From assembly GCA_019638615.1 (NCBI GenBank), contig JAHBTL010000033.1, positions 19,789 through 83,788 on the forward strand: DNA of 64,000 bases, read 5' to 3'. The first letter of the stretch is position 1, and every line of letters starts with the position of its first letter. The notes beneath the pieces are model-generated. The model saw only the letters and a list, made by a program, of their open reading frames with translations, was not told the DNA's origin and searched no databases. The translations under genes and the position numbers were made by a program. Shown in pieces: positions 39,001 through 55,342 of this stretch. The DNA comes from Chitinophagaceae bacterium (GTDB lineage Bacteria; Bacteroidota; Bacteroidia; Chitinophagales; Chitinophagaceae).

Positions 39001-39099
39001 TTTTTTCCGGCAGTTATAAAATAGCCCCACGATCGTTCTGTACAGTATATGTGAAGCCGGCTTCATAACAAATAATTGTTCAAAAAAATATAAGTCTAC

Positions 39100-39129
39100 T
39101 TGTTTGGTAGACTAAATACCCTATATTTG
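39100..39129 (+). promoter_or_regulatory. Promoter of the SusCD-sulfatase operon
   Basis: TTG (39100-39102) is separated by 19 nt from TATATTTG (39122-39129), an exact Bacteroidota -7 box, followed by C. Transcription would start near 39136, about 410 nt before the SusC start codon at 39550, giving an unusually long leader. Confidence 0.7.
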
Positions 39130-39209
39130 CTTTCAATTAACATGCTGCGCAATAGTATGTGCAGTAGCTTGTTTTTGATTGTTGCCTTGTAAGCTTTTAA
39201 ATTAGAACT

Positions 39210-39296
39210 ATGCTGTTTAATTCAACAACAAAACGCTCTCTTCATTTCAACGCTGTTGTCAGCACACAGTATTGCTGTTGCTGCTGTATCTGTTAA
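39210..39296 (+). CDS. Poly-cysteine leader peptide (candidate cysteine attenuator)
   Basis: A 28-codon frame runs from ATG 39210 to TAA 39294-39296. The N-terminal part is basic and polar (MLFNSTTKRSLHFNAVVST) and the end is QYCCCCCIC: six Cys in the last seven codons, using both TGC and TGT. It lies about 75 nt after the predicted transcription start and 254 nt before SusC. Poly-Cys leader ORFs act as cysteine-responsive attenuators in mycobacteria (established there, not in this phylum). Here the downstream operon liberates sulfate from organosulfates, a sensible target for cysteine sensing. A small secreted or metal-binding peptide is the main alternative. Confidence 0.65.
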   Translation: MLFNSTTKRSLHFNAVVSTQYCCCCCIC

Positions 39297-39434
39297 GTTG
39301 CTAATGCTTATTACACTTCTCATTCCTTATCCTGGGCGGGTACAATTTTTATACTAGCATTTCAATTAAATATTTATGAAACAAATCTTTGTTTGTTGCC
39401 GGGATGGTCCGTGTGGCAATCATTTAAATAAATA

Positions 39435-39460
39435 GCCGGCATCGTTGCAGCGATACCGGC
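39435..39460 (+). promoter_or_regulatory. Stem-loop in the sulfatase-operon leader
   Basis: GCCGGCATCG (39435-39444) pairs with CGATACCGGC (39451-39460) with one C-A mismatch around loop TTGCAG, followed by CGTATAAAAAGG. It is the strongest hairpin between the poly-Cys frame and the SusC start and may be the regulated element. It lacks a U-tract on the plus strand. Confidence 0.6.
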
Positions 39461-39549
39461 CGTATAAAAAGGCTGACGTGAATCATGGCAGAAGAGCAAT
39501 GACGCTTTTCCTGCCGCCTTATTATTGGATCGAATATAAACAAATATGT

Positions 39550-42500
39550 ATGAAATTTAAGTGGCTTATATGGCTGAACTTGTTTTTTTTATTTGCAATA
39601 ACACTTACCGCCCAGGTTAATGAAGTGCGGGAGGTAGAAGGAGTAGTAAAATCAGAAAAAGGTGAACCGCTGGAAGGAGTAAGTATTGGCGTGAAAGGTG
39701 CTGAAAATGGAACATTTACCAACAGCGGGGGATATTTTAAAATAGCATTACCAGCTACCAGCAATAGCATCGTTTTTTCTTTTACAGGATTTGCCAAACA
39801 GGAAGTAAAAGTGGTCGCCGGCAAAACAATGTCCGTTATCCTGAAGCAGGATATAGGTCAACTGGACGAAATAGTAGTAACTGCTGTTGGTATCAAGAAT
39901 ACAAAGAAATCTATCAATTATTCCATTCAACATCTTAAAACAGCAGAAATAACTGCTACCAAAGAACCAAATATAGTTTCTGCTTTGAGCGGAAAGGTAG
40001 CCGGGGTACAGATTAATAATAGCAGCGGGCAACCGGGCGGATCTGCAACCATACGCATACGGGGCAGTGCATCAGCACTGGGCGATAATTCGCCTTTGTT
40101 CATATTAGATGGCATGCCTATCGACAATTCCAATACCGGACTGGCCATTCAAAATGCCAACCAGATTGTAAACCAGTCTAACCGGACAGTAGACATCAAC
40201 CCCAATGATATAGAAAGTATTTCTGTGCTCAAGGGACCCGCTGCTGCTGCATTATATGGAATACGCGCATCGAATGGTGCTGTTATCATTACAAGTAAAA
40301 AGGGATCTTATGGAAAAGACAGGCAGAAACTGAAAGTATCACTGTACAGCAGCCTTACATTTGAAACCATTGCAAGAAGATTGCAGCCTGCGCAAACAAC
40401 ATTCGGACAGGGCGTAAATGGAAAATATACAACGCCTGGTCAAAATGGATCAGAAGACAGTTGGGGCCCTTTGCTTGATACGCTTACATACAGCACTGTG
40501 GCCAGTAAATGGGACAAAAATGGCACTATAGTCGGAAAGAACGATCCCACCTCTAACGGCATTCCTGTAAACAGGTACGACAACATTGGTAGTTTTTTTG
40601 AACTAGGTTATACCAATGACAATGCTGTAAGTATAACCGGTAATAGTGAAAAGCTCGGCTATTACTTTTCGTTTGGCAGACTTTATCAGAAAGGCATTGT
40701 ACCCACTACTGATTTCTTTCGCAACACAGTGCGGTTCGGAACAACCTTTCGTGCTACCGACAAGCTTGATTTTAATGTATCCGTTAATTATTTTAATTCG
40801 GGCTCTCACAACAGGATGTTACCGGGGGGTGCGCCTGCCGGCACCTTGCGTAGCTTAATCAATACGCCTGCTAATTTCGATATTACCAACGGGCTTTCAA
40901 ATCCTGCCGGAAATCCGCTTTCATACACTTTTGAAGATGGTACACAACGGGCTTACGCAGGTGGCACACGTGGGTTCGACAGTCCATTCTGGTCGCTGAA
41001 CAACAATCCTCATCCGGACAATATCAATCGTGTTGTGCTGGTAGAAGAAACCAATTATAAAATTCTTGACTGGTTAACGGCAACGTTCAGGTTGGGAACC
41101 GATGTATCTTTTGAAAAAAGAATGTCCTTATTCAATAAAGGATCTGTTGCTTTTCCTGCAGGTATATTGGTAAACTATAATTTCTTTAACAAAGATATCA
41201 ATACAGATGTCTATCTCACAGCGAATAAAAAGTTGTCAGACGATTTTAACCTGAAAGTGATCGCAGGGCATAATTACTTCGATCATCATCTTAACGCCAC
41301 CTTAAACCAGGGTAATAATTTGAACCTGCCTGGTTTTGAGAACATCAGCAACGCCTCTACTTTCAACATTCAGCAAAATATTACTAAAAGAAGGCTTGTG
41401 GCAGGTTATGCCAGTGCTGAACTGGATTATAAAAAATGGCTGATACTGAATGTTACAGGCAGAAATGAGTGGACCTCTACCCTTGCCAGGGGTAAGAATT
41501 CCTTCTTTTATCCTTCTGTGAGCCTTGGATGGATTGTAAATGAGTCTCTTAACTGGTACGCTCCGTGGCTCGACTACCTGAAGCTAAGGACTTCGTTTGC
41601 ACGGGTAGGCAATGATGCATCTCCTTATTCCCTGGCTACTTATTATTCTTCTGCAACGCTCAGCGGATCTGTTCAGGGACAAACGCTCAATTTTCCTTTT
41701 AACGGGTTGGCAGGTTACAGCATCAACAGCAGCCTTGGCAATATTAATTTAAAGCCGGAACAAATCACATCGTACGAAGGCGGATTGGAAACCTGGCTGT
41801 TCAAAAACAGGCTGGGTGTGGATGTTTCAGCATATAAAAATGAAAGCCGCGACCAGATACTGCCTGTAAGTATTCCCACATCAACCGGCTTCAACAGTTT
41901 CATCACCAATGCGGGACTGATCACCAACCAGGGAGTAGAAGCGATTGTGACTGGCGTATTGGTAAACAAATCTTCCTTTAGGTGGACGGCTATACTCAAC
42001 TTTGCACATAATCAGAGCAAAGTACATTCCTTAACTGAAGGCAGCGGTATCATTTCGCTGATGAGCACCAATGGAGGAACACAGGTGATAATGGCAGGAC
42101 AGCCCTTTAGTGTAATCTATGGCAGAGCGTTAACTACCAACGAAGCAGGAAAGGTTTTGATTGATGACAGGCAAACCATTAATGGCGCTCCCAATGCCAG
42201 TTATGGATTACCTCTGGCAGAGGCTGCTCCAAGCGTTATAGGAGATCCCAATCCATTGTGGAATGCGGGGTTGAGAAACACGATAAGCTATAAAAATTTC
42301 AGTCTTTCCTTCCTGTTCGATAACCGTTATAAGTTTGATATCTACAACAGCACGTTGGCGCAAATGGTAAGCAACGGTGTGGCAAAAGTTACGGAAAACA
42401 GGTACGACCAGGTAGTATTTGACGGAGTTGGGTTAACCAGCGGAAAAATAAACGATATACAGGTAGTCCCTGGAGAAGCATGGTACAGAAGCACGATCAA

Positions 42501-42774
42501 CTATGGATCCGTTTATATGGAAAAAGACCTGTGGTGGATACGCTTGCGTGATATTAACCTGAGCTACACCCTGCCGGAAAGCCTGCTTGATAAAATCCGT
42601 TTGTCGGAACTCGAACTGACCCTGACAGGAAGAAATCTTTTTCTGTTTACAAATTATTCCGGAAGCGATCCGGATGTAAACCTGCGTGGAGGTTTTACCA
42701 ATGGCTTTGGTTCAGACTTTTTTAATTACCCTACTACCAAAAGCTACGGTATAACGTTGCGTGCCTCATTTTAA
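39550..42774 (+). CDS. SusC/RagA TonB-linked transporter of the sulfatase operon
   Basis: The protein has about 1074 residues from the ATG at 39550, which begins a clean signal peptide (MKFKWLIWLNLFFLFAITLTAQ). The frame could extend to a TTG at 39445, but that codon lies in the leader hairpin. The carboxypeptidase-regulatory domain (VEGVVKSEKGEPLEGVSIGV) is followed by the TonB-box/plug (LDEIVVTAVGIKNTKKSINY, DNSPLFILDGMPIDN, ISVLKGPAAAALYGIRASNG) and the barrel ending YGITLRASF. It imports the substrate captured by the following SusD. Given the two sulfatases and a formylglycine-generating enzyme downstream, the cargo is probably a sulfated organic molecule. Confidence 0.95.
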   Translation: MKFKWLIWLNLFFLFAITLTAQVNEVREVEGVVKSEKGEPLEGVSIGVKGAENGTFTNSGGYFKIALPATSNSIVFSFTGFAKQEVKVVAGKTMSVILKQDIGQLDEIVVTAVGIKNTKKSINYSIQHLKTAEITATKEPNIVSALSGKVAGVQINNSSGQPGGSATIRIRGSASALGDNSPLFILDGMPIDNSNTGLAIQNANQIVNQSNRTVDINPNDIESISVLKGPAAAALYGIRASNGAVIITSKKGSYGKDRQKLKVSLYSSLTFETIARRLQPAQTTFGQGVNGKYTTPGQNGSEDSWGPLLDTLTYSTVASKWDKNGTIVGKNDPTSNGIPVNRYDNIGSFFELGYTNDNAVSITGNSEKLGYYFSFGRLYQKGIVPTTDFFRNTVRFGTTFRATDKLDFNVSVNYFNSGSHNRMLPGGAPAGTLRSLINTPANFDITNGLSNPAGNPLSYTFEDGTQRAYAGGTRGFDSPFWSLNNNPHPDNINRVVLVEETNYKILDWLTATFRLGTDVSFEKRMSLFNKGSVAFPAGILVNYNFFNKDINTDVYLTANKKLSDDFNLKVIAGHNYFDHHLNATLNQGNNLNLPGFENISNASTFNIQQNITKRRLVAGYASAELDYKKWLILNVTGRNEWTSTLARGKNSFFYPSVSLGWIVNESLNWYAPWLDYLKLRTSFARVGNDASPYSLATYYSSATLSGSVQGQTLNFPFNGLAGYSINSSLGNINLKPEQITSYEGGLETWLFKNRLGVDVSAYKNESRDQILPVSIPTSTGFNSFITNAGLITNQGVEAIVTGVLVNKSSFRWTAILNFAHNQSKVHSLTEGSGIISLMSTNGGTQVIMAGQPFSVIYGRALTTNEAGKVLIDDRQTINGAPNASYGLPLAEAAPSVIGDPNPLWNAGLRNTISYKNFSLSFLFDNRYKFDIYNSTLAQMVSNGVAKVTENRYDQVVFDGVGLTSGKINDIQVVPGEAWYRSTINYGSVYMEKDLWWIRLRDINLSYTLPESLLDKIRLSELELTLTGRNLFLFTNYSGSDPDVNLRGGFTNGFGSDFFNYPTTKSYGITLRASF

Positions 42775-42793
42775 AAAAGACAAAGTAAATAGT

Positions 42794-44263
42794 ATGATGA
42801 CAAAGTATATAAAATGGCTGACGATAGTAACAGTAATGCCTGTTTTGTTTTCGTGCAGCAAAATGCTGGAAAATACCAATATCAATAAAAACAATCCCTC
42901 AGATATTCCTTTAACAGGATTACTGCCTGCCGCGGAAGTAGCATTAACTTATAATATTGCCGCGGATTTTTCAATGCGATCGTCCATTTTTGTACAGCAT
43001 ATTGGTGGTATTGGCGGATTTGCAGTAAACGACGACAAATATGATTTTGCCACCAGCAATTTTGATGGCGCCTGGGCAAACGCGTACGGCAAATCGTTGA
43101 ACAATCTTTTGCAGATCATAAAAAAGGCGGAAGCTGCAGGCGCTCCCCGTTATGCAGGTATAGCTAAGGTGCTTACTGCATTGTCGTTGGGCACTTTAAC
43201 CGATGCATATGGGGATATACCATACACAGAAGCGTTGAACCCCGAAATTCTTGCTCCCTCGTACGAAAGCCAGGAAGCGATTTATAATAAAATACAATCG
43301 TTGCTGGAAAGTGCAGTGAGCGACTTACAGCAAACAACAGGGCTGGCACCAGGCAACGATGATGTAATATTTAAAGGAAATATTGCAAGATGGATCGCCT
43401 CGGCATGGACGCTGAGGGCGAGATACGCGCTTCACCTGAGTGCACGAAATTCTCAACAGGCCGCGCAGCAGGTGCTGGGCTTTTTGTACGATGGTAATAC
43501 CTATCGCGGGATCCAGCATAACGATGGTGATATTGCTATTACCTTCGGAACGTCCAATAACCAGGCTTCACCCTGGTTTACGCAGGATGCCGGACGCCCT
43601 GGCTGGTACGGTATGGGCGGATACCTGGTGGATCTGCTGAATGGTGACCCGCCGGCTGTTCCTGTTGATCCACGCAGGGCGGCATTTGCTGCCCCAAGGC
43701 CTGCCCCCGCACCGCCCGATACATATGTTGGATCGCGTCCGGGCATACCCACAGCCGCATCAAATATTGTGGGTGTAAATACTTATTACGGAAGAAATAA
43801 TTCCCCGGTGTCTCTTCTCAGTTTTCCGGAGGCAAAGCTGATTGAAGCAGAAGCAAGGCTGTTACTGGATGAAAATGATCCGCTTATTCAGGCTTCGCTG
43901 GAAACAGCAGTAAAAAGCTCATTTGAAAAAGTTACTTCAGTTGCTGACCCGTTCGCCAGCCAGCAAAACCAGGATGAATATATTGCCAAAAGGGTACAAT
44001 TGAATGGCAGTGCAGCCGAAAAACTCAAAACCATCATTACTCAAAAATATGTTGCGCTTTACCTGAACCCTGAAGTCTGGGTAGATTATCGTCGTACAGG
44101 ATATCCTGAGTTATCACCGGCAACCGGTGGCGCCACCACTATTAATCCTAATGGAGAAATTCCCAGGAGATTTTCATATCCTAACAGCGAAGTAAACCTG
44201 AACCCACAGCTCCCTGTAAAGAGCTCGGATCTGCAGCAACCCAGGTTATGGTGGGATCAATGA
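42794..44263 (+). CDS. SusD-like (SusD_2 group) outer-membrane lipoprotein
   Basis: The protein has about 489 residues from the ATG at 42794 (another ATG follows directly). The GTG at 42761, which overlaps the SusC end, is less likely. The lipobox is VLFSC followed by SKM. The SusD_2 type is recognised by NKNNPSDIPLTGLLPAAEVAL, YAGIAKVLTALSLGTLTDAYGDIPYTEAL, LPGNDDVIFKGNIARWIASAWTLRARYALHL in segments, and the C-terminal LNPEVWVDYRRTGYPEL. It binds the ligand on the cell surface with its SusC partner, 19 nt upstream. Sulfate-ester ligands are inferred from the downstream genes. Confidence 0.93.
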   Translation: MMTKYIKWLTIVTVMPVLFSCSKMLENTNINKNNPSDIPLTGLLPAAEVALTYNIAADFSMRSSIFVQHIGGIGGFAVNDDKYDFATSNFDGAWANAYGKSLNNLLQIIKKAEAAGAPRYAGIAKVLTALSLGTLTDAYGDIPYTEALNPEILAPSYESQEAIYNKIQSLLESAVSDLQQTTGLAPGNDDVIFKGNIARWIASAWTLRARYALHLSARNSQQAAQQVLGFLYDGNTYRGIQHNDGDIAITFGTSNNQASPWFTQDAGRPGWYGMGGYLVDLLNGDPPAVPVDPRRAAFAAPRPAPAPPDTYVGSRPGIPTAASNIVGVNTYYGRNNSPVSLLSFPEAKLIEAEARLLLDENDPLIQASLETAVKSSFEKVTSVADPFASQQNQDEYIAKRVQLNGSAAEKLKTIITQKYVALYLNPEVWVDYRRTGYPELSPATGGATTINPNGEIPRRFSYPNSEVNLNPQLPVKSSDLQQPRLWWDQ

Positions 44264-44306
44264 TTTGTATACTTATTCTGATAAAAAACAATAAAGCAAT
44301 AATAAA

Positions 44307-46667
44307 ATGATGATCAAGTTTCATGGATATAGAAAACAAATCGTTTCAGCGGCAGCAGTTTTTATTATGGCAGCCTGTCAGCAGTCAACAACAATACCCG
44401 ATACAAACATTTCCGAAGATGGATTTCAGGGAAAAATCGGCAAAACGGTAGAGGAATCGCAGGAATGGTGGCCGGAAAAGAAAAAAGCAACAGACGGAGC
44501 GCCGAATGTATTGGTATTTTTATTGGACGATGCGGGCTACGGAACGTCGAGCGCGTTTGGCGGTTTAATGGAAACACCGGTACTGGACAGTCTCGCCAAT
44601 AATGGTCTCCGGTATACGAATTTTCATACTACGGGCGTATGTTCGCCCACAAGGGCGGCCCTGTTAACCGGGCGAAACCATCATTCCGTACATATGGGGC
44701 ATCTCAATTACAACGCATTGGGGTATCCCGGCTACGATGGTTACCTGCCTGAAGACAAAGCAACCATTGCCGAAATTTTGAAGGAAAACCACTATAACAC
44801 CTATGCTGTAGGCAAGTATCATGTTACGCCCGTTAGTGAAATTACCTCAGTTGGTCCTTTTGACAGGTGGCCGTTGGGAAAAGGATTTGACCATTTTTTT
44901 GGCTGGCACCTGGGACATACCGATCAGTATCATCCCAACTTATATGAAGATAACCAGGTAACAAGCGTGGAGCCTAACAAGCAGCATGTTACAACGCTGC
45001 TGGCAGACAAAGCGATCAAATACATTGCCAACCAGCGCTCGATTGCCCCCGAAAATCCATTCTTCCTTTACTTTTCTGTTGGTGCCATTCACTCACCACA
45101 CCAGGTAGATAAAAAGTGGAGTGATTTGTATAAGGGAAAATTTGATAAAGGCTGGGACTGGTATCGCGAAGAAGTGTTTGAAAGGCAGAAAAAGCTGGGC
45201 ATCGTTGCACAGAATGCAGAACTGCCTGACCGGGATCCTTCAGTGCCTGCCTGGGAAAGTCTTTCTCCTGAAGCCCGTAAATTGTATGCCCGCTATATGG
45301 AAATATATGCTGGCTTTATGACGCATACCGATCATGAGTTTGGCCGCATTATAAAATACCTGGAAGAAGTGGGAGTGGCAGACAATACAGTTGTAATTGC
45401 CATCATTGGTGACAATGGCTCCAGCCACAGCACTGCCCATGGTAACATTAATGGATATATCAGCCAACTGGAGGCTGATAAACAAGTACCGGAAGGGCTT
45501 AAGATATATGAAAAAATGGGAACCGAGCATTCGTTTATGGATGCGCCATCCGGCTGGACGCAGGCTACCAATACCCCCTTCCGTTTATGGAAAACAGATG
45601 CCAATGCCGAAGGAGGTACACGCAATCCTTTAATTGTATACTACCCGAAAGCGATAAAAGAAAAAGGCGGCATACGCAAGCAATACAGTCATGTAATAGA
45701 TATCGCGCCCACTATTATTGATATTACCGGCTCGAACATTCCTGCCGTTATAAAAGGACATGCTCAAAAATCAATAGAAGGCACCAGCTTGTTTTATTCT
45801 TTAAATGATGCCAAAGCAGCAGACAGGCATACAATTCAGTATTATGAGCTGAGGGGTAAAAGAGCAATATACAAAGATGGCTGGAAAGCCTCCGTATACC
45901 ATGAAAGCGGTACCAGTTTCGCTGACGATGTGTGGGAATTGTATAACCTGAATGAAGATTTTAATGAACGGATAGATATAGCCAAACAAAATCCCGGTAA
46001 GTTGAAAGAGCTGCAGGATATCTTCGATGGAGAAGCAAAGAAGTATAATGTTTATCCGCTGATTGATGCCAGGCAGGGTAGGGGAGCCGGAGGAAGAGAA
46101 CGCAGCGCTTTTGGAACTGCCGATAAAATTATATTGTACCCGGGGGTAGACCAGTTCTTAACATTGAGCGGCCCACAGTTCAAATCTGAATCGTTTAGCA
46201 TAACAGCCAGTGTTGACATTGCATCGGTTAATGAGCAGGGGGTATTATTCGCAACAGGCAGTGAATTTGAGGGACTGAGCCTGTTCGCTAAAGATGGAAG
46301 ATTTCAGGTGGCGCATAATACCGGTTCTGTAGTCCGGCACCTTGAGTCGGATAAGCTGTTAACTGTGGGTAAACATGAACTAAAGTTTGAGCTGAACTAT
46401 ACCGGCAAAAAGCAGGATCTGATCTTAGCTACCCATATCAAAGCACAAAAACAGGAAGATATTGATGCAGGAACTGAAAGTATTTATATTGATAATGTAA
46501 AAGTAGGAGAGCGTACGATCAAAGCTTCCGAAGCAAGGTATGTCGGCTTTTATAAGGATGCCATTGATGTAGGAGAGGATCTGAATTCACCGGTAAGCAA
46601 CCGTTATCAATCACCTTTCAGGTATACAGGGAAACTGAGTAAAATAGTTATTGAATACGGGAAGTAA
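44307..46667 (+). CDS. Arylsulfatase lipoprotein (AtsA-like, S1 family)
   Basis: The 786-residue protein is a lipoprotein (lipobox IMAAC, Cys24). Its sulfatase core is NVLVFLLDDAGYGTSSAFGG (metal Asp pair), FHTTGVCSPTRAALLTGRNHH with formylglycine Cys112 of C-x-P-x-R, AVGKYHVTPVSE, FFLYFSVGAIHSPHQ and AIIGDNGSSHS. The length of 786 and the features near WDPN-free NHHSVHMG resemble the long arylsulfatases typified by Pseudomonas AtsA, which is induced in sulfate starvation. A C-terminal beta-sandwich-like domain of about 200 residues follows (DKIILYPGVDQFLTLSGPQF to SKIVIEYGK). It probably desulfates imported organosulfates in the periplasm. Confidence 0.93.
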   Translation: MMIKFHGYRKQIVSAAAVFIMAACQQSTTIPDTNISEDGFQGKIGKTVEESQEWWPEKKKATDGAPNVLVFLLDDAGYGTSSAFGGLMETPVLDSLANNGLRYTNFHTTGVCSPTRAALLTGRNHHSVHMGHLNYNALGYPGYDGYLPEDKATIAEILKENHYNTYAVGKYHVTPVSEITSVGPFDRWPLGKGFDHFFGWHLGHTDQYHPNLYEDNQVTSVEPNKQHVTTLLADKAIKYIANQRSIAPENPFFLYFSVGAIHSPHQVDKKWSDLYKGKFDKGWDWYREEVFERQKKLGIVAQNAELPDRDPSVPAWESLSPEARKLYARYMEIYAGFMTHTDHEFGRIIKYLEEVGVADNTVVIAIIGDNGSSHSTAHGNINGYISQLEADKQVPEGLKIYEKMGTEHSFMDAPSGWTQATNTPFRLWKTDANAEGGTRNPLIVYYPKAIKEKGGIRKQYSHVIDIAPTIIDITGSNIPAVIKGHAQKSIEGTSLFYSLNDAKAADRHTIQYYELRGKRAIYKDGWKASVYHESGTSFADDVWELYNLNEDFNERIDIAKQNPGKLKELQDIFDGEAKKYNVYPLIDARQGRGAGGRERSAFGTADKIILYPGVDQFLTLSGPQFKSESFSITASVDIASVNEQGVLFATGSEFEGLSLFAKDGRFQVAHNTGSVVRHLESDKLLTVGKHELKFELNYTGKKQDLILATHIKAQKQEDIDAGTESIYIDNVKVGERTIKASEARYVGFYKDAIDVGEDLNSPVSNRYQSPFRYTGKLSKIVIEYGK

Positions 46668-46761
46668 AAGACAGGGCTGGCAAAAAGGGTGATCATTGTG
46701 GACTCCTACATGTTTCTTACCTTGCGCAATACCTGACCTTTCAAAAATAATGCTTATTATC

Positions 46762-48303
46762 ATGAACAGACTATTATCCGGGTTAATTGGGACATGCTTG
46801 CTGTTAACATTCAATACGGTGAATGTAGCCGCACAAAGCACCGCCAGGCGTCCCAATATTGTTTTTATTTTTTCGGATGATCATGCCTACCAGACGATCA
46901 GCGCATACGGAAGCAAGCTGGCTGTAACGCCCGGTATCGACAGGATCGCGAAAGAAGGAGCATTGTTTAAAAATACTTTTATTACCAATTCCATCTGTGG
47001 TCCCAGCCGGGCTTGTTTGCTCACGGGAAAGTACAGCCACATGAATGGTTATAAATTAAATGAACGAAAGTTTGATGACAGTCAGCAGGTATTTCCCGAA
47101 TTGCTGCAGCAGGCCGGCTATCAAACCGCCTGGGTAGGTAAATTACATTTGGGTTCTGTTCCCAAAGGGTTGGATTACTGGAATATTTTACCCGGCCAGG
47201 GACATTATTACAATCCTGATTTTATTAAAACCGGTTACGATACAAGCCGTGTTACAGGCTATGTAACGGATCTCATCACCGATTTTTCCATCGACTGGAT
47301 CAACAAAAGAGATACTTCCAGACCTTTCTTTTTGGTGATCGGGCAAAAAGCAACGCACCGCGAATGGCTGCCCGCGCTCGAAGACCTGGGTGCCTACGAT
47401 GATGTTGACTTCCCGCTCCCTGCTACATTTTACGATGATTATAAAGGAAGATTGGCTGCTCAAAAACAGGATATGACCATTGATAAGACCATGACGCTGG
47501 CGATGGATTTAAAAGTGCATGCTGATTATGAAAAGGCGAGAGATTACAGCAGGATGAACCCGGAGCAGAAAAAAATATTTTATGATTATTATGAAAACAA
47601 GATCAGCAAAGAATTTGACGAAAAAAAAATGACAGGAGATGCGTTGGTACGGTGGAAATACCAGCGTTACCTGAAAGATTATCTTTCTACCGCAAAGTCG
47701 CTGGACAGGAACATTGGCCGCGTGCTGGATTATCTTGATAAAAACGGGTTGGCTGAAAATACCATTGTGGTATACGCTTCAGACCAGGGATTCTATATGG
47801 GAGAACATGGCTGGTTCGACAAACGTTTCATGTACGAAGAGTCACTGAAAACAGCATTTGTAATGCGTTATCCGGGAGTGGTCAAGCCGGGCACTGTTAT
47901 CAACCAGTTTGCTTTGGGTATAGACTGGGCGCCCACCCTCCTCGATGTAGCAGGAGTAAAGATCCCCGATGCCATACAGGGCAGATCATTATTGCCTTTA
48001 TTAAAAGCCGGGAGTAAAAATATTGCCTGGAGAAAGAACATGTATTATCATTATTATGAATTTCCCCAGCCTCATCATGTATATCCTCATTTTGGTATCC
48101 GTACCGAAAAGTATAAGCTGATACGGTTTTATGGCGGCGCTGATTCGTGGGAACTGTTTGATTTAGCGAAAGATCCCGGTGAGCTTAATAATATATATGG
48201 CGACAAAAAGAATGAGAAAATAGTAGCTGCTTTGAAGGCCGATCTGCGCAAATTGATCGTGGAATATAAAGATGAAGAAGCTTTGAAATTATTGGAGAAT
48301 TAG
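46762..48303 (+). CDS. Sulfatase (S1 family), secreted; second of the operon
   Basis: The protein has about 513 residues from the ATG at 46762 (MNRLLSGLIGTCLLLTF, signal peptide ending VAAQ). The ATG at 46750 is an alternative. Core motifs are NIVFIFSDDHAYQTISAYG, TNSICGPSRACLLTGKYSH with Cys79 in C-x-P-S-R, TAWVGKLHLGSVP, FFLVIGQKATHREW, VVYASDQGFYMGEHGWFDKRFMYEES and IQGRSLLPLL. This resembles the heparan/GlcNAc-sulfatase-like branch of S1. It lies 95 nt after the first sulfatase and 10 nt before the formylglycine-generating enzyme gene. Having two sulfatases of different branches suggests stepwise desulfation or breadth of substrates. Confidence 0.94.
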   Translation: MNRLLSGLIGTCLLLTFNTVNVAAQSTARRPNIVFIFSDDHAYQTISAYGSKLAVTPGIDRIAKEGALFKNTFITNSICGPSRACLLTGKYSHMNGYKLNERKFDDSQQVFPELLQQAGYQTAWVGKLHLGSVPKGLDYWNILPGQGHYYNPDFIKTGYDTSRVTGYVTDLITDFSIDWINKRDTSRPFFLVIGQKATHREWLPALEDLGAYDDVDFPLPATFYDDYKGRLAAQKQDMTIDKTMTLAMDLKVHADYEKARDYSRMNPEQKKIFYDYYENKISKEFDEKKMTGDALVRWKYQRYLKDYLSTAKSLDRNIGRVLDYLDKNGLAENTIVVYASDQGFYMGEHGWFDKRFMYEESLKTAFVMRYPGVVKPGTVINQFALGIDWAPTLLDVAGVKIPDAIQGRSLLPLLKAGSKNIAWRKNMYYHYYEFPQPHHVYPHFGIRTEKYKLIRFYGGADSWELFDLAKDPGELNNIYGDKKNEKIVAALKADLRKLIVEYKDEEALKLLEN

Positions 48304-48313
48304 TGCATTTGTT

Positions 48314-49423
48314 ATGAAGGGAAGAAATAGGTTTATATATGGAGTAATAATATCCGTTGTTGCAATGATCGGGGCATCAGGTTGTAATCAGCAACCTAAA
48401 GAAATATCCGCAACGGTTAAAGCCGATAGCCTTGCCGGTAAAGCTACCTGTTGTGTGGCACCACTCTCCAGGCTGGCAGTGTTTACGCAGGCAGATTCAT
48501 CTGCAAATTCCGGGAAAGACACCGTTAAGATGTTGTGGATACCCGGCGGCACTTTCCAAATGGGAAGCGAGGATTTTCCCGATGCCAAACCGGTGCATCA
48601 GGTTACGGTTTCCGGCTTTTGGATGGATGAGCATGAAGTAACCAACGGCCAGTTTGCGGCTTTTGTAAAAGCTACCGGGTATAAAACGGTTGCTGAGCGC
48701 CCACTGAATCCTGCGGATTTTCCCGGTGTACCCCCTGATAAGCTGGTGCCCGGCTCTGCGGTATTCACGCCTCCCGCACATAAGGTGACGCTTGATAACC
48801 CTTTACAGTGGTGGCAATATGTACATCATGCCAGTTGGGATCATCCCGAAGGACCTTCCGGCTCGGTTGAAAAAAGAAGCAATGAGCCCGTGGTTCACGT
48901 TAGTTATGAAGACGCGGCCGCTTATGCAAAATGGGCAGGCAAGCGGCTGCCCACCGAAGCGGAATGGGAGTTTGCAGCAAGAGGAGGAAAGCAGTATGCC
49001 CGGTATTATTGGGGCGAAGCATTAAAACCGGGAGGCAAATGGCCGGCGAATATTTTCCAGGGCAGTTTCCCCGAAGGCAACACGAAAGAGGATGGGTATA
49101 CCGGCACAGCTCCTGTTAAAATTTTTCCGCCCAATAATTATGGTTTGTATGATATGGACGGCAATGTATGGGAGTGGTGCGAAGATTATTACCGTCCCGA
49201 TTATTATAAAAACAGTCCGTCACAAAATCCCACAGGCCCGGTTGACAGCTATGACCCCGATGAACCGGGCGCGGTAAAGCGTGTGCAAAGAGGAGGCTCT
49301 TTTTTATGCAGCGACCAGTATTGCATTCGTTACAGGGCAGGCAGCCGGGGCAAGGGGGAAGTAAGCAGCGGCAGCAATAACCTGGGGTTCAGGTGCGTGA
49401 AAAGTACCGGCGATAAGCGGTAA
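48314..49423 (+). CDS. Formylglycine-generating enzyme (sulfatase-maturing, SUMF1 family), lipoprotein
   Basis: The 369-residue protein has a signal peptide and lipobox GASGC, so it is exported. The FGE-sulfatase domain occupies about 75-368: WIPGGTFQMGSEDFPDAKPV, FWMDEHEVTNGQFAAFV, VSYEDAAAYAKWAGKRLPTEAEWEFAARGG in parts, FPPNNYGLYDMDGNVWEWCED, VQRGGSFLCSDQYCIRYR. Cys332 and Cys337 in GGSFLC-x4-C match the active-site pair of copper-dependent FGE (Cys336/Cys341 in the human enzyme). It oxidises the sulfatase Cys to formylglycine using O2. Its position directly after two sulfatases makes its clients obvious. Its export implies maturation outside the cytoplasm. Confidence 0.93.
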   Translation: MKGRNRFIYGVIISVVAMIGASGCNQQPKEISATVKADSLAGKATCCVAPLSRLAVFTQADSSANSGKDTVKMLWIPGGTFQMGSEDFPDAKPVHQVTVSGFWMDEHEVTNGQFAAFVKATGYKTVAERPLNPADFPGVPPDKLVPGSAVFTPPAHKVTLDNPLQWWQYVHHASWDHPEGPSGSVEKRSNEPVVHVSYEDAAAYAKWAGKRLPTEAEWEFAARGGKQYARYYWGEALKPGGKWPANIFQGSFPEGNTKEDGYTGTAPVKIFPPNNYGLYDMDGNVWEWCEDYYRPDYYKNSPSQNPTGPVDSYDPDEPGAVKRVQRGGSFLCSDQYCIRYRAGSRGKGEVSSGSNNLGFRCVKSTGDKR

Positions 49424-51919: not shown

Positions 51920-54900
51920 ATGCTTTTTAGCAGAAAGGACCGTACAGTTTCGAATGATTTTTTTTGTACGATAAAGCAGATATCCTTTTTACTTGCCGCT
52001 TTTTTATTATCTGTCTTATTTACAAGCGCTCGTACAGGTGGTCATTGGTCAACTTATCATGATCATCTCCAGGATTCGGTAAGGGTAAGAGGAAAAGTGA
52101 CCGATGCGGATGATAAAACACCCCTGCCGGGTGTGTCTGTAGAAAATTTGCGCAGCAACCAGGGCGTTATGACAAATAGTGAAGGAGAATTTACCCTTTA
52201 CGCGCAGGCAGGCGACCGTATTCAATTTACCTACATCGGAAAGGCGCCCAAAACGATCCTATTCAGAGGCGAAACTTTTTTACCTGTTGAATTGCAGAAA
52301 AGCGATGGCGCTTTGGCTGAAGTAGTGGTTACCGGCTTTCAGAACCTTGATAAAAAGAAGTTTTCCGGCGCTGCGGCTTCTTTGAAGGCCGCGGATGTTA
52401 AGATAGATGGCATTGCAGATGTGAGCCGCATGCTCGAAGGCAGAGCCGCCGGTGTATCAGTACAAAATGTATCAGGTACTTTTGGCGCTGCGCCTAAAAT
52501 ACGCATAAGAGGCGCTACTTCCATCAACGGAGATAACAAACCGTTGTGGGTGGTGGACGGAGTAGTGCTGGAAGATATTGTTAACATTTCGAATGACCAG
52601 TTGTCCAGCGGAGATCCCACTACTTTGCTGGGCTCATCGGTTGCCGGTATCAATGTGAACGATATAGAAAGCTTTGATATATTAAAAGACGCCGCGGCTA
52701 CTGCGTTATACGGAGCCAGGGCAATGAACGGAGTAGTGGTGGTTACTACCAAAAAAGGCCGTGCCGGCCGTCAGGTGATCAATTATACCGGTAATTACAG
52801 TACCCAGTTCAAGCCTCAGTATGCTGATTATAATATCATGAACTCCGTAGAGCAGATGTCGGTATTATCCGAGCTGGATCGCAAAGGATGGCTTACTACC
52901 AGTATATTATTGGGTGGCGACTATGGTATTTACGGCAAGTATTTCGACCTGGTGAATACAGTGCTGCCTGATGGAAGCTTTGCATTGCCCAATACAGTAG
53001 AAGCTAAAAGAGACTATTTGTTGCGATATGCCAAAGCCAATACCGATTGGTTTGATCTTTTGTTCCGCCAGTCGTTTTTGCAGGAGCACTCGTTGAGCAT
53101 ATCTTCGGGCACAGACCGGCTGCAATCGTTTTTCTCTACCAGCTTTTATAACGATAACGGCTGGACGCTGGCGGATAACGTAAAACGCTACACCCTCAAC
53201 TTCCGGAATAATTATACGCTTTCCGACAGATTTACCGTAGGTTTCCTTACGACAGGCTCCTACCGCCAGCAGGAGGCGCCGGGCACCGTTAACCGGAGCG
53301 CAAACCAGGTAGAAGGCGGATTTGAGAGGGATTTTGATATCAATCCCTTTAGCTACGCGTTAAATTCAAACAGGGCATTAACGGCATTTGACGAAAACGG
53401 GGAACGCGAATATTTTACCAGGAATTTCGCTCCCTTCAATATTCTCACCGAACTGGAAAATAATAAACTTAAAATCAATGTAATTGACCTGAAGCTGCAG
53501 GGAGAGGCCGGGTATAAATTCACTAAAAATCTTAAATATGAATTTATCGGCGCTATCCGTTATGTGCGTTCTACCCGCGAGCAGGAAGTAACTGAAAACG
53601 CTAATATGGCGAATGCTTATCGTGCAGCCGATAATGCCGAAATGCGCAGGAGCAACAGGTTCCTTTACCAGGATCCTGAAAACCTGGGCGCCGAAAAAAT
53701 AGTAGTGCTGCCTTATGGGGGCTTTTACAACAGAACGGAAGACCAGTTGCTCAACTTTGATGTAAGGAACAGTGTAAGCTATACCAATACGATTGCCGAA
53801 AAACATGAGATCGGCATCCTGGCAGGGCAGCAGATCAAGTACGCCGACAGGCAGAATGCTTCCAGTACAGGGTATGGTTACCAGTATGAGAATGGCGGCG
53901 TGGCCACTCCCGATTTTCATATCCTCAAGCAGATGATCGAAAGAAATTTTCCTTACTATGGAATGAGTAAGGACTTTGACAGGTTCGCCGCCTTTTACCT
54001 GAATGCTCAATATACGTATGACAACAAGTATAATTTTTATGGCACCGTTCGTTACGACGGATCCAACAGGTTGGGAGCATCGCGCACGGCACGCTGGCTG
54101 CCTACCTGGAGCTTTGGCGGCGCCTGGAATATAGACAGGGAAGATTTTATGCGGGATATTACTGTTGTTGATTTTTTAAAGCTGAGGGCAAGCTACGGAT
54201 TAACAGCCAGTATGGGGCCGGCCACCAATTCCAATATTGTGCTGCGCAATATGAATATCCATCGCCCGTATTTATCGGATGTGGAAACCATCATATACAT
54301 AGCCAACCTGGCCAATAATGAGCTCACCTGGGAAAAGAACTATACTACCAACGTGGGGTTAGACGCTTCTTTGTTTGGCAACAAGCTTACGGCAAGCATA
54401 GACTGGTACCAGCGTAAAAGCTTTGACCTGATAGCATTGATAAGGACTTCAGGTATTGGCGGGGAATCCCTGAAAGCAGCCAATTACGCGGACATGGCTT
54501 CTCATGGCGTGGAAGTATTGGTGGGCGCCACTCCCGTAAATACCAAAAACTGGAGCTGGAAGACCAATGTAACCTTTGGATACAACACGACCAGGATCAC
54601 CCATTCGGAATACCTGCCGCGCATTTTTGACCTGGTAAAAGCGGAAGGCGGTAACCTGAAAGGCTATCCTGTGAACAGCCTGTTTTCTATCCGGTATGCA
54701 GGTCTCAACCCGTCTACAGGAGTGCCTGAGTTCATCAATGAAAAAGGGGAACGGTCTTCCGGTGTGTATTTGCAATCAGACAGCAGCAGTAATTTAAAGT
54801 TTGAAGGCTCCGTGGATCCAAAATTTACCGGCGGATGGAACAATACTTTTACATACCGGTCTTTTTCGCTCAACGTTTTTGTAACCTACCAGGCCGGTAA

Positions 54901-55342
54901 TAAAATACGTTTATACCCGGCATTCAGGAACAGCTATACCGAACTGGACGCTACCCCCAAAGAGTTCTACGACCGGTGGGTGCTTCCCGGCGACCAGGAT
55001 GTTACCAATATCCCCTCTATCATGGACTATTACCAGAACAACCTGAGCGTAAATGACAATTCAGCCTATCCCTATAATAATTACAATTACTCAACCGAAA
55101 GAGTAGCCAAAGGCGATTTTGTGCGATTGAAATCAGTATCTCTTACCTACCAGTTTCCGCCATCGTTTATTATGAAAAGCGGTTTCATAAAAACAACTGC
55201 TTTAACACTGGCCGCAATTAACCCCTGGCTGCTCTATTCCGACAAAAAATTACAGGGGCAGGATCCCGAGTTCTTTAATGCCGGTGGAGTGGCAATGCCG
55301 GTACAAAAACAAATTACACTTTCATTAAAAGCAGGCTTTTAA
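51920..55342 (+). CDS. SusC/RagA TonB-linked transporter (third Sus locus)
   Basis: This 1140-residue protein has a signal segment (ISFLLAAFLLSVLFTSART), then the carboxypeptidase-regulatory domain (VRGKVTDADDKTPLPGVSVEN), the TonB-box/plug (LAEVVVTGFQNLDKKKFSGAA, NGDNKPLWVVDGVVLED, FDILKDAAATALYGARAMNG), and the barrel ending QITLSLKAGF. It imports ligand captured by the next gene product. Downstream partners (a zinc metallohydrolase lipoprotein, DUF4302, a collagen-like lipoprotein) define a Sus-like locus without any glycosidase, so peptide or protein-derived substrates are possible. Confidence 0.95.
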   Translation: MLFSRKDRTVSNDFFCTIKQISFLLAAFLLSVLFTSARTGGHWSTYHDHLQDSVRVRGKVTDADDKTPLPGVSVENLRSNQGVMTNSEGEFTLYAQAGDRIQFTYIGKAPKTILFRGETFLPVELQKSDGALAEVVVTGFQNLDKKKFSGAAASLKAADVKIDGIADVSRMLEGRAAGVSVQNVSGTFGAAPKIRIRGATSINGDNKPLWVVDGVVLEDIVNISNDQLSSGDPTTLLGSSVAGINVNDIESFDILKDAAATALYGARAMNGVVVVTTKKGRAGRQVINYTGNYSTQFKPQYADYNIMNSVEQMSVLSELDRKGWLTTSILLGGDYGIYGKYFDLVNTVLPDGSFALPNTVEAKRDYLLRYAKANTDWFDLLFRQSFLQEHSLSISSGTDRLQSFFSTSFYNDNGWTLADNVKRYTLNFRNNYTLSDRFTVGFLTTGSYRQQEAPGTVNRSANQVEGGFERDFDINPFSYALNSNRALTAFDENGEREYFTRNFAPFNILTELENNKLKINVIDLKLQGEAGYKFTKNLKYEFIGAIRYVRSTREQEVTENANMANAYRAADNAEMRRSNRFLYQDPENLGAEKIVVLPYGGFYNRTEDQLLNFDVRNSVSYTNTIAEKHEIGILAGQQIKYADRQNASSTGYGYQYENGGVATPDFHILKQMIERNFPYYGMSKDFDRFAAFYLNAQYTYDNKYNFYGTVRYDGSNRLGASRTARWLPTWSFGGAWNIDREDFMRDITVVDFLKLRASYGLTASMGPATNSNIVLRNMNIHRPYLSDVETIIYIANLANNELTWEKNYTTNVGLDASLFGNKLTASIDWYQRKSFDLIALIRTSGIGGESLKAANYADMASHGVEVLVGATPVNTKNWSWKTNVTFGYNTTRITHSEYLPRIFDLVKAEGGNLKGYPVNSLFSIRYAGLNPSTGVPEFINEKGERSSGVYLQSDSSSNLKFEGSVDPKFTGGWNNTFTYRSFSLNVFVTYQAGNKIRLYPAFRNSYTELDATPKEFYDRWVLPGDQDVTNIPSIMDYYQNNLSVNDNSAYPYNNYNYSTERVAKGDFVRLKSVSLTYQFPPSFIMKSGFIKTTALTLAAINPWLLYSDKKLQGQDPEFFNAGGVAMPVQKQITLSLKAGF

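Follow-up and report, generated by a model that had tools for sequence, protein, structure and literature searches.

CymR-type Rrf2 regulators control cysteine and sulfur genes in Firmicutes, and polycysteine short open reading frames (ORFs), leaderless by the title of the report, were reportedly described in mycobacteria by Canestrari et al. in 2020. Polysaccharide utilization loci (PULs) that include sulfatases are also known. Here, we report a computational analysis of a 64,000-nt stretch of a Chitinophagaceae bacterium genome (GenBank assembly GCA_019638615.1, contig JAHBTL010000033.1, positions 19,789 to 83,788; hereafter the window), in which a 28-codon ORF ending in a run of cysteine codons lies between a Bacteroidota-type promoter and an operon encoding SusC, SusD, two sulfatases and a formylglycine-generating enzyme (FGE). 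Comparison with orthologous operons, and with other genes that share a palindrome at the promoter, indicates that this is probably a sulfur-scavenging Sus operon under dual control, by a repressor operator, putatively bound by an Rrf2-family protein, and by a cysteine-sensing leader. Sulfur control of the operon is well supported by these comparisons and cysteine sensing by the leader is likely; the identity of the repressor and the readout of the leader are what we infer from the sequences.

The published record offers further related cases. The uORFC-8-2 motif before cysS of Rhodobacterales (PMC8632094) contains a tandem-cysteine upstream ORF that is proposed to sense charged tRNA-Cys. Within Bacteroidota, there are strong indications that amino-acid operons of Flavobacterium psychrophilum are attenuated through leader peptides (PMC9723704), and 5′ untranslated regions of Bacteroides thetaiotaomicron contain short ORFs reminiscent of leader peptides (PMC7366714); the latter paper also describes DonS, a family of RNAs encoded antisense to susC in cis. 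Among the matches listed for cysteine leaders and for sulfur control in Bacteroidota in the open-licence literature, there was neither a Bacteroidota polycysteine leader nor a Sus locus under such control.

Leader ORF and its conservation

The ATG at 39210 opens a plus-strand ORF of 28 codons that extends to 39296, encodes the peptide MLFNSTTKRSLHFNAVVSTQYCCCCCIC and stops at TAA. Six of its last seven codons specify cysteine (peptide end CCCCCIC), making it rich in the codons of the amino acid that it is supposed to sense. The predicted promoter upstream has what we take to be the Bacteroidota −33/−7 form, and because its −7 box ends at 39129, the start site deduced from it leaves the ORF with an untranslated leader of its own. 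The original prediction had proposed this ORF, with its cysteine-run end, behind a promoter at 39100–39129 and ahead of a one-strand operon; the ORF is exactly as it described, the promoter reads TTG, 19 nt, TATATTTG, and Pfam upholds its assignment of SusC, SusD, two sulfatases and FGE. The peptide has no NCBIfam match, and Rfam at gathering threshold returned zero matches in the window.

Family scans of 195 and then 394 genomes identified an orthologous SusC in eight of the 394, the window's own genome and seven others at 46–47% identity, whereas the next-best SusC in the 195-genome scan reached at most 39%. In all seven relatives, susC is followed by orthologs of SusD (44–47%) and sulfatase A (48–52%), with another sulfatase sitting between these two genes in two of them. 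Each of the eight leaders contains a short ORF that opens with ATG and closes in a cysteine cluster, and the stop of this ORF lies 178–286 nt upstream of SusC (examples of the peptides are MFTAREDIHYCCCSIHCCCC, MHLGKKHTHSCCSSTCCC, MYIAKFTIHVCCCISFCC, MKKLIQPVGQRCFAKGCCCLCCC and MARHTLYTCCCQHCCC). A cysteine codon immediately precedes the stop in all eight and both cysteine codons are used (33 TGT and 15 TGC), whereas the N-termini and stop codons vary and the peptide outside the cluster has diverged. We scored the last 14 residues of each short ORF by two rules, a loose one (three or more cysteines that include CC) and a strict one (CCC, in an ORF opened by ATG). The loose rule is satisfied by 8/8 orthologous leaders versus 1/24 non-orthologous control SusC leaders (25 loci, one dropped for a short flank) and the strict rule by 7/8 as scripted versus 0/24; the ortholog that misses it (L047) was reported with an earlier GTG, yet has the same cysteine cluster. 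The original prediction stood to fail if relatives lacked the ORF or had lost its cysteine codons, and it survives this comparison.

Taken alone, the cysteine ORF of the window is only moderately unlikely by chance. Its shuffled leader passes the loose rule 63 times in 400 and the strict rule 8 times in 400, the top values among the eight leaders (8–63 and 0–8 in 400, respectively). The weight given to the ORF therefore comes from its presence in all eight orthologs. A scan of the window's own genome (7.18 Mb) for four TGY codons with a nearby stop returned 48 rows, some of them overlapping, and the backwards pattern returned 9; as a search for polycysteine leaders, TGY runs alone are uninformative unless combined with the operator described below. 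The window's is the sole ATG-started leader of a nearby operon among these rows, as judged by eye.

The operon is patchily distributed, because the orthologous SusC is absent from 8/8 other genomes of the same genus among the matches listed in the 394-genome scan, and of 395 genomes scanned at class level the own genome alone was recovered. A search for related loci among genome contigs yielded four distant ones and zero orthologs. In the 14–16 kb analysed from each of the seven relatives, we found no FGE homologue. These stretches carry a membrane protein that looks alike in all seven by eye and matches PF04116 in the one tested. Membrane proteins of this type recur in sulfatase operons (L083–L086 and L114–L116) and beside operators (L172, L174, L184 and L205), the latter assigned by eye.

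Operator and sulfur regulon

A perfect inverted repeat, AGTCTAC-TTGTTTG-GTAGACT (39093–39113), overlaps the −33 region of the promoter. It has one mismatch to the pattern AGTCYAYNNWTTTKGTRGACTWA and is the sole site with at most three mismatches in the whole window. The right arm, GTRGACT, is kept in all eight orthologous leaders, where the best matches have 1 (window), 0, 0, 2, 2, 3, 3 and 4 mismatches. With at most one mismatch allowed, the pattern is present in 128 of the 394 family genomes; the reversed-pattern control gave 4 among the matches listed. This putative second layer of control, an operator for a candidate Rrf2 repressor, was missed by the original prediction.

The window's own genome contains three operator sites. 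Behind the one at C34:37047 come an ORF with a GTG start (by eye) and the ending HIIYCCCRQATY and then, on the same strand, a run of genes for PhyH, SDR, DUF6134, a receptor of TonB type (by eye), CysM, the serine O-acetyltransferase EpsC, a type 2A encapsulin shell and the cysteine desulfurase that is its cargo. CysM and the three proteins after it score above NCBIfam cut-offs, and we infer that this run is one operon. Type 2A encapsulins have reportedly been tied to sulfur metabolism (PMC8049743). The remaining site, C9:3431, lies near a thioredoxin-fold lipoprotein gene and has no cysteine ORF by rule. In the same genome, a second sulfur locus (C34:22000–48000; L111 and L112) combines a SusC–SusD pair with three sulfatases, and past these lies the C34:37047 operator with its cysteine leader and the genes behind it.

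We surveyed 110 loci with 116 operator sites, a subset of a larger number of sites. Nearly all of these (112/116) lie outside ATG-started frames of at least 100 amino acids. In the forward direction, a cysteine-ended short ORF occurs within 330 nt of 31/116 sites (mean 2.7 and maximum 7 in 30 shuffles), compared with 9/116 in the reverse direction (shuffle mean 3.2, maximum 6). The 31 ORFs start with ATG (20), GTG (3) or TTG (8), and 24 contain CCC, which at 24/116 sites is the commonest homotripeptide near short-ORF ends. TGY runs after forward sites fall in the cysteine frame of a short ORF in 27 of 28 cases, the other two frames giving 1 and 15.

Genes at the operator sites form 76 single-linkage clusters, many of which, singletons included, have no known sulfur role; their names come from Pfam on fragments of a few and otherwise from inspection by eye. 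The largest cluster comprises 43 TonB/SusC-type site-directions, 20 with a cysteine ORF, and a PhyH cluster has the ORF at all of its five site-directions (four genes). Other neighbours are MetY-like, CysM-like, type 2A encapsulin-like and peroxiredoxin-like genes and a sulfatase. An Rrf2-like gene occurs at five site-directions (L194, L202, L208, L209 and L210; one sequence confirmed by Pfam). The two features expected of an Rrf2-controlled sulfur regulon, a palindrome common to sulfur genes and an Rrf2 gene associated with the operator, are both found. One apparent target was set aside: the site at a PAPS reductase gene (L196) falls inside the start of that gene and is probably a coding coincidence. 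At seven loci (L117, L120, L131, L193, L195, L200 and L217), inspection by eye shows another operator-like palindrome after the cysteine ORF and ahead of the receptor gene, so that one palindrome stands on either side of the leader.

A class scan found the operator in 9/247 genomes, including two from the family of the window. Outside the family there are 17 sites, one of which (L238) has a cysteine ORF; the eight sites of one genome (G535) resemble a repeat. At L238 the operator is followed by an ORF ending MMYCCMPEIEHCGD and then by an ABC ATPase (Pfam ABC_tran) that presumably resembles MetN.

Sulfur content of the operon proteins

The locus has the adjacent susC and susD genes expected of a Sus system or PUL. 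By Pfam, the five operon genes include no carbohydrate-degrading enzyme (glycoside hydrolase or lyase), the rest being sulfatases and FGE only. The mature SusD proteins of the eight orthologs contain no cysteine and 0–2 methionines in 460–474 residues, and six of the eight have neither. Their Met+Cys content averages 0.08% (n = 8) versus 2.09% in 25 control genes adjoining the control susC genes, called susD by position and cut by flank (Mann–Whitney p 1.4e-5, no overlap). SusC shows a smaller difference (0.59% in orthologs versus 1.00% in controls, p 0.002) with overlapping ranges; the orthologs share ancestry, so both p values overstate independence. Sulfatase A of the window has 6 methionines and 1 cysteine in the 758 residues past residue 28, and each of its seven relatives retains a single cysteine, that of the CSPTR/CSPSR motif, with 0–6 methionines in about 745 residues. 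As plain averages, genes after operators have 0.84% Met+Cys with a cysteine ORF (n = 26) and 1.82% without (n = 44). The contention of the original prediction that this Sus system serves sulfur and not carbon nutrition is supported by the near absence of methionine and cysteine from SusD and by an operator held in common with cysteine and sulfur genes.

Sulfatase B has no close homologue in the seven relative stretches (best about 30%) and a 59% homologue elsewhere in its own genome (L111). FGE retains the two cysteines that active enzymes are expected to have. The SusC and SusD of the C34 sulfur locus, the latter called by position, contain 0.20% and 0.22% Met+Cys past residue 28. The window also includes a second SusC-type gene (51920–55342), with no operator-like site upstream at up to three mismatches. 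The probable start of SusC in the operon is the ATG at 39550 (Table 1).

Table 1 Features of the leader and operon, in window coordinates
Feature	Position	Strand	Basis
Candidate operator, AGTCTAC-N7-GTAGACT(AA), which overlaps the −33 region and may bind an Rrf2-family repressor	39093..39115	+	Perfect 7+7 inverted repeat
Predicted promoter: TTG (39100–39102), 19 nt, TATATTTG (39122–39129)	39100..39129	+	Sequence
Terminator-like hairpin with T tract, before the leader ORF	39143..39166	+	Three terminator-like sites in region, shuffle mean 1.0
Leader ORF, 28 codons, MLFNSTTKRSLHFNAVVSTQYCCCCCIC	39210..39296	+	Sequence; counterparts in 8/8 orthologous operons
Cysteine codons TGC TGT TGC TGC TGT, ATC, TGT, abutting the TAA stop	39273..39293	+	Codon listing
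Pyrimidine-rich, G-poor stretch (C 0.19, G 0.12); weak possible Rho loading region	39297..39376	+	C>G in 8/8 orthologs
GC-rich hairpin with T-rich tract, terminator-like	39434..39461	−	Folds on both strands
SusC/RagA TonB-linked receptor	39550..42774	+	Pfam PF07715, PF00593; NCBIfam TIGR04056 above cut-off
SusD-like_2 lipoprotein; mature part 2 Met, 0 Cys in 460 amino acids	42797..44263	+	Pfam PF12771
Sulfatase A, CSPTR motif	44307..46667	+	Pfam PF00884; homologue at 48–52% in 7/7 relative operons
Sulfatase B, SGSH_C	46753..48303	+	Pfam PF00884
FGE	48314..49423	+	Pfam PF03781

Readout of the leader

A classical attenuator would have a mutually exclusive terminator and antiterminator 3′ of the ORF, and none was found in the window leader. 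Because our scan detected no intrinsic terminator on the sense strand from the ORF to susC, we do not class this leader as one. The original prediction of a cysteine-sensing leader is supported by a cysteine ORF retained in all orthologs; the leader, as scanned, lacks the anatomy of a stall-and-terminator attenuator. A conserved hairpin was considered as a sense-strand attenuator and set aside, its T-rich tract being on the minus strand. This minus-strand terminator-like hairpin is found in 6/8 orthologous leaders versus 0/24 control SusC leaders (sense-strand ones occur in 3/24), which suggests that an antisense RNA oriented like DonS may end here; pair counts in its alignment are weak (double changes at 3/7 pairs, with some rows misaligned by a base) and carry no weight.

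Attenuator anatomy is present elsewhere in the regulon but, by scan, not in the leader of the window. In three genomes of one genus (L208–L210), the operator separates an Rrf2 gene from a divergently oriented leader ORF that has two cysteine clusters. Behind that ORF, after 23–25 nt, L208 and L209 have a terminator with a 14-bp stem and a T tract, and L210 folds similarly; in truncated folds of all three, an alternative stem takes up part of the terminator's 5′ arm. The genes behind these leaders are a thioesterase-like gene and ComA, phosphosulfolactate synthase (one of each tested).

Under dual control, an Rrf2-family, CymR-like repressor would sit on the promoter palindrome while sulfur is plentiful. 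Ribosomes would translate the 28-codon leader, as its conserved anatomy suggests, and where Cys-tRNA is scarce a ribosome would stall in the terminal cysteine codons, and transcription would run on into susC. The most likely readout, offered as a guess, is that the ribosome held on the last codons masks the pyrimidine-rich RNA behind the stop and blocks Rho, a mechanism that we favour because the scan detected no intrinsic terminator on the sense strand in that interval before susC. A held ribosome blocks Rho in a similar way at tnaC. Imported sulfate esters would be cut by the sulfatases, feeding cysteine synthesis.

Alternative explanations

Several observations weigh against dual control of the operon. 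At the operator, the window site has a mismatch, the left arm is degenerate in five of the seven other orthologs (2–4 mismatches), and the own genome's two Rrf2 genes have no operator nearby. Across the regulon, 85/116 operator sites lack a cysteine ORF by rule; among the 31 that have one, two ORFs (L182 and L211) overlap a long gene and the eight TTG starts are included. LLL is almost as frequent as CCC near short-ORF ends, at 21/116 sites (reverse direction, 13); the reading of TGY as leucine in frame +2 explains this at least in part. Sulfatase B and FGE are not sulfur-poor. As to the readout, scanning the 300 nt ahead of susC detected an intrinsic terminator on the sense strand in none of the eight leaders, and the one sense-strand terminator-like hairpin of the window leader precedes the ORF. 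When a stretch of fixed length ahead of SusC is compared, C exceeds G only weakly (0.088 versus 0.033 in controls), and among 34 regulon leaders with a cysteine ORF, 6 have a terminator-like site on the sense strand, against 7 on the antisense strand.

The many operator sites without a cysteine ORF, the MetY-like genes that follow the operator within 45 nt with no leader, and the failure to find a terminator between the ORF and susC would all suit sulfur control through the repressor operator alone, with the ORF translated but either serving another purpose, such as a small peptide that binds thiols or metal, or acting as a minor modulator only. We consider this unlikely, although it is the strongest of the competitors: the cysteine ORF recurs at all eight orthologs and at 31/116 sites, the peptide outside the cluster is unconserved, unlike a functional peptide, and the anatomy of L208–L210 fits attenuation. 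There is very little probability that (TGY)n acts as DNA or RNA, as a hairpin or repeat, with the cysteine reading incidental. The LLL count bears on this idea too, as does the finding that frame +2 satisfies the same start-and-stop rule for 15/28 runs; against it, 27/28 runs lie in the cysteine frame, and the clusters are interrupted by other codons, differ in length and use both TGC and TGT. Equally hard to credit is a carbon-type PUL controlled by its substrate and a DonS-like antisense RNA, with the cysteine run irrelevant. The minus-strand hairpin, seen in orthologous leaders and in no control leader, speaks for it, and antisense RNAs of the DonS type are known at Bacteroides susC genes (PMC7366714), but the five genes include, by Pfam, neither a glycoside hydrolase nor a lyase, and this, the operator of sulfur genes and the sulfur-poor SusD all argue against it.

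Discussion

Beyond the window, we see about even chances that these loci belong to a family-wide sulfur regulon that reads supply twice, an Rrf2 protein sensing a metabolite and cysteine leaders sensing charged tRNA-Cys, and that drives near-sulfur-free Sus systems for sulfur acquisition; in the SusC branch, the leader would gate Rho or an antisense RNA and not an intrinsic terminator. Sus systems are usually taken as glycan importers, and if some are sulfur-acquisition machines, many sulfatase-rich Bacteroidota loci need re-reading, for which the combination of operator and cysteine leader provides a simple genome-level test. If cysteine sensing holds, leader-peptide control by this amino acid would extend to a phylum with no case among the matches listed in the literature searched. 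The SusD proteins, six of eight mature parts of which contain neither methionine nor cysteine, are a clean model of sulfur-sparing protein evolution.

Set beside the described systems, the locus shares single features with each. Like the mycobacterial polycysteine ORFs, it has consecutive cysteine codons ahead of an operon, as a proposed readout of cysteine supply; unlike those ORFs, its ATG lies roughly 75 nt past the inferred start site, and it occurs in Bacteroidota with a palindromic operator and a Sus operon attached. The uORFC-8-2 motif controls cysS and has an intrinsic terminator at its end, whereas no such terminator was found between the ORF and susC here. As in CymR regulons, an Rrf2-family regulator is tied to cysteine and sulfur genes, but in another phylum and combined with a cysteine leader, and its binding to the operator is a prediction. 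The terminator-like hairpin antisense to the susC leader recalls DonS, although the antisense RNA of the window is putative and linked to a sulfur-type operon. Finally, the operon resembles sulfatase PULs in its SusC, SusD and sulfatases, and differs from them in having no carbohydrate-degrading enzyme by Pfam, a sulfur-type operator and a sulfur-poor SusD.

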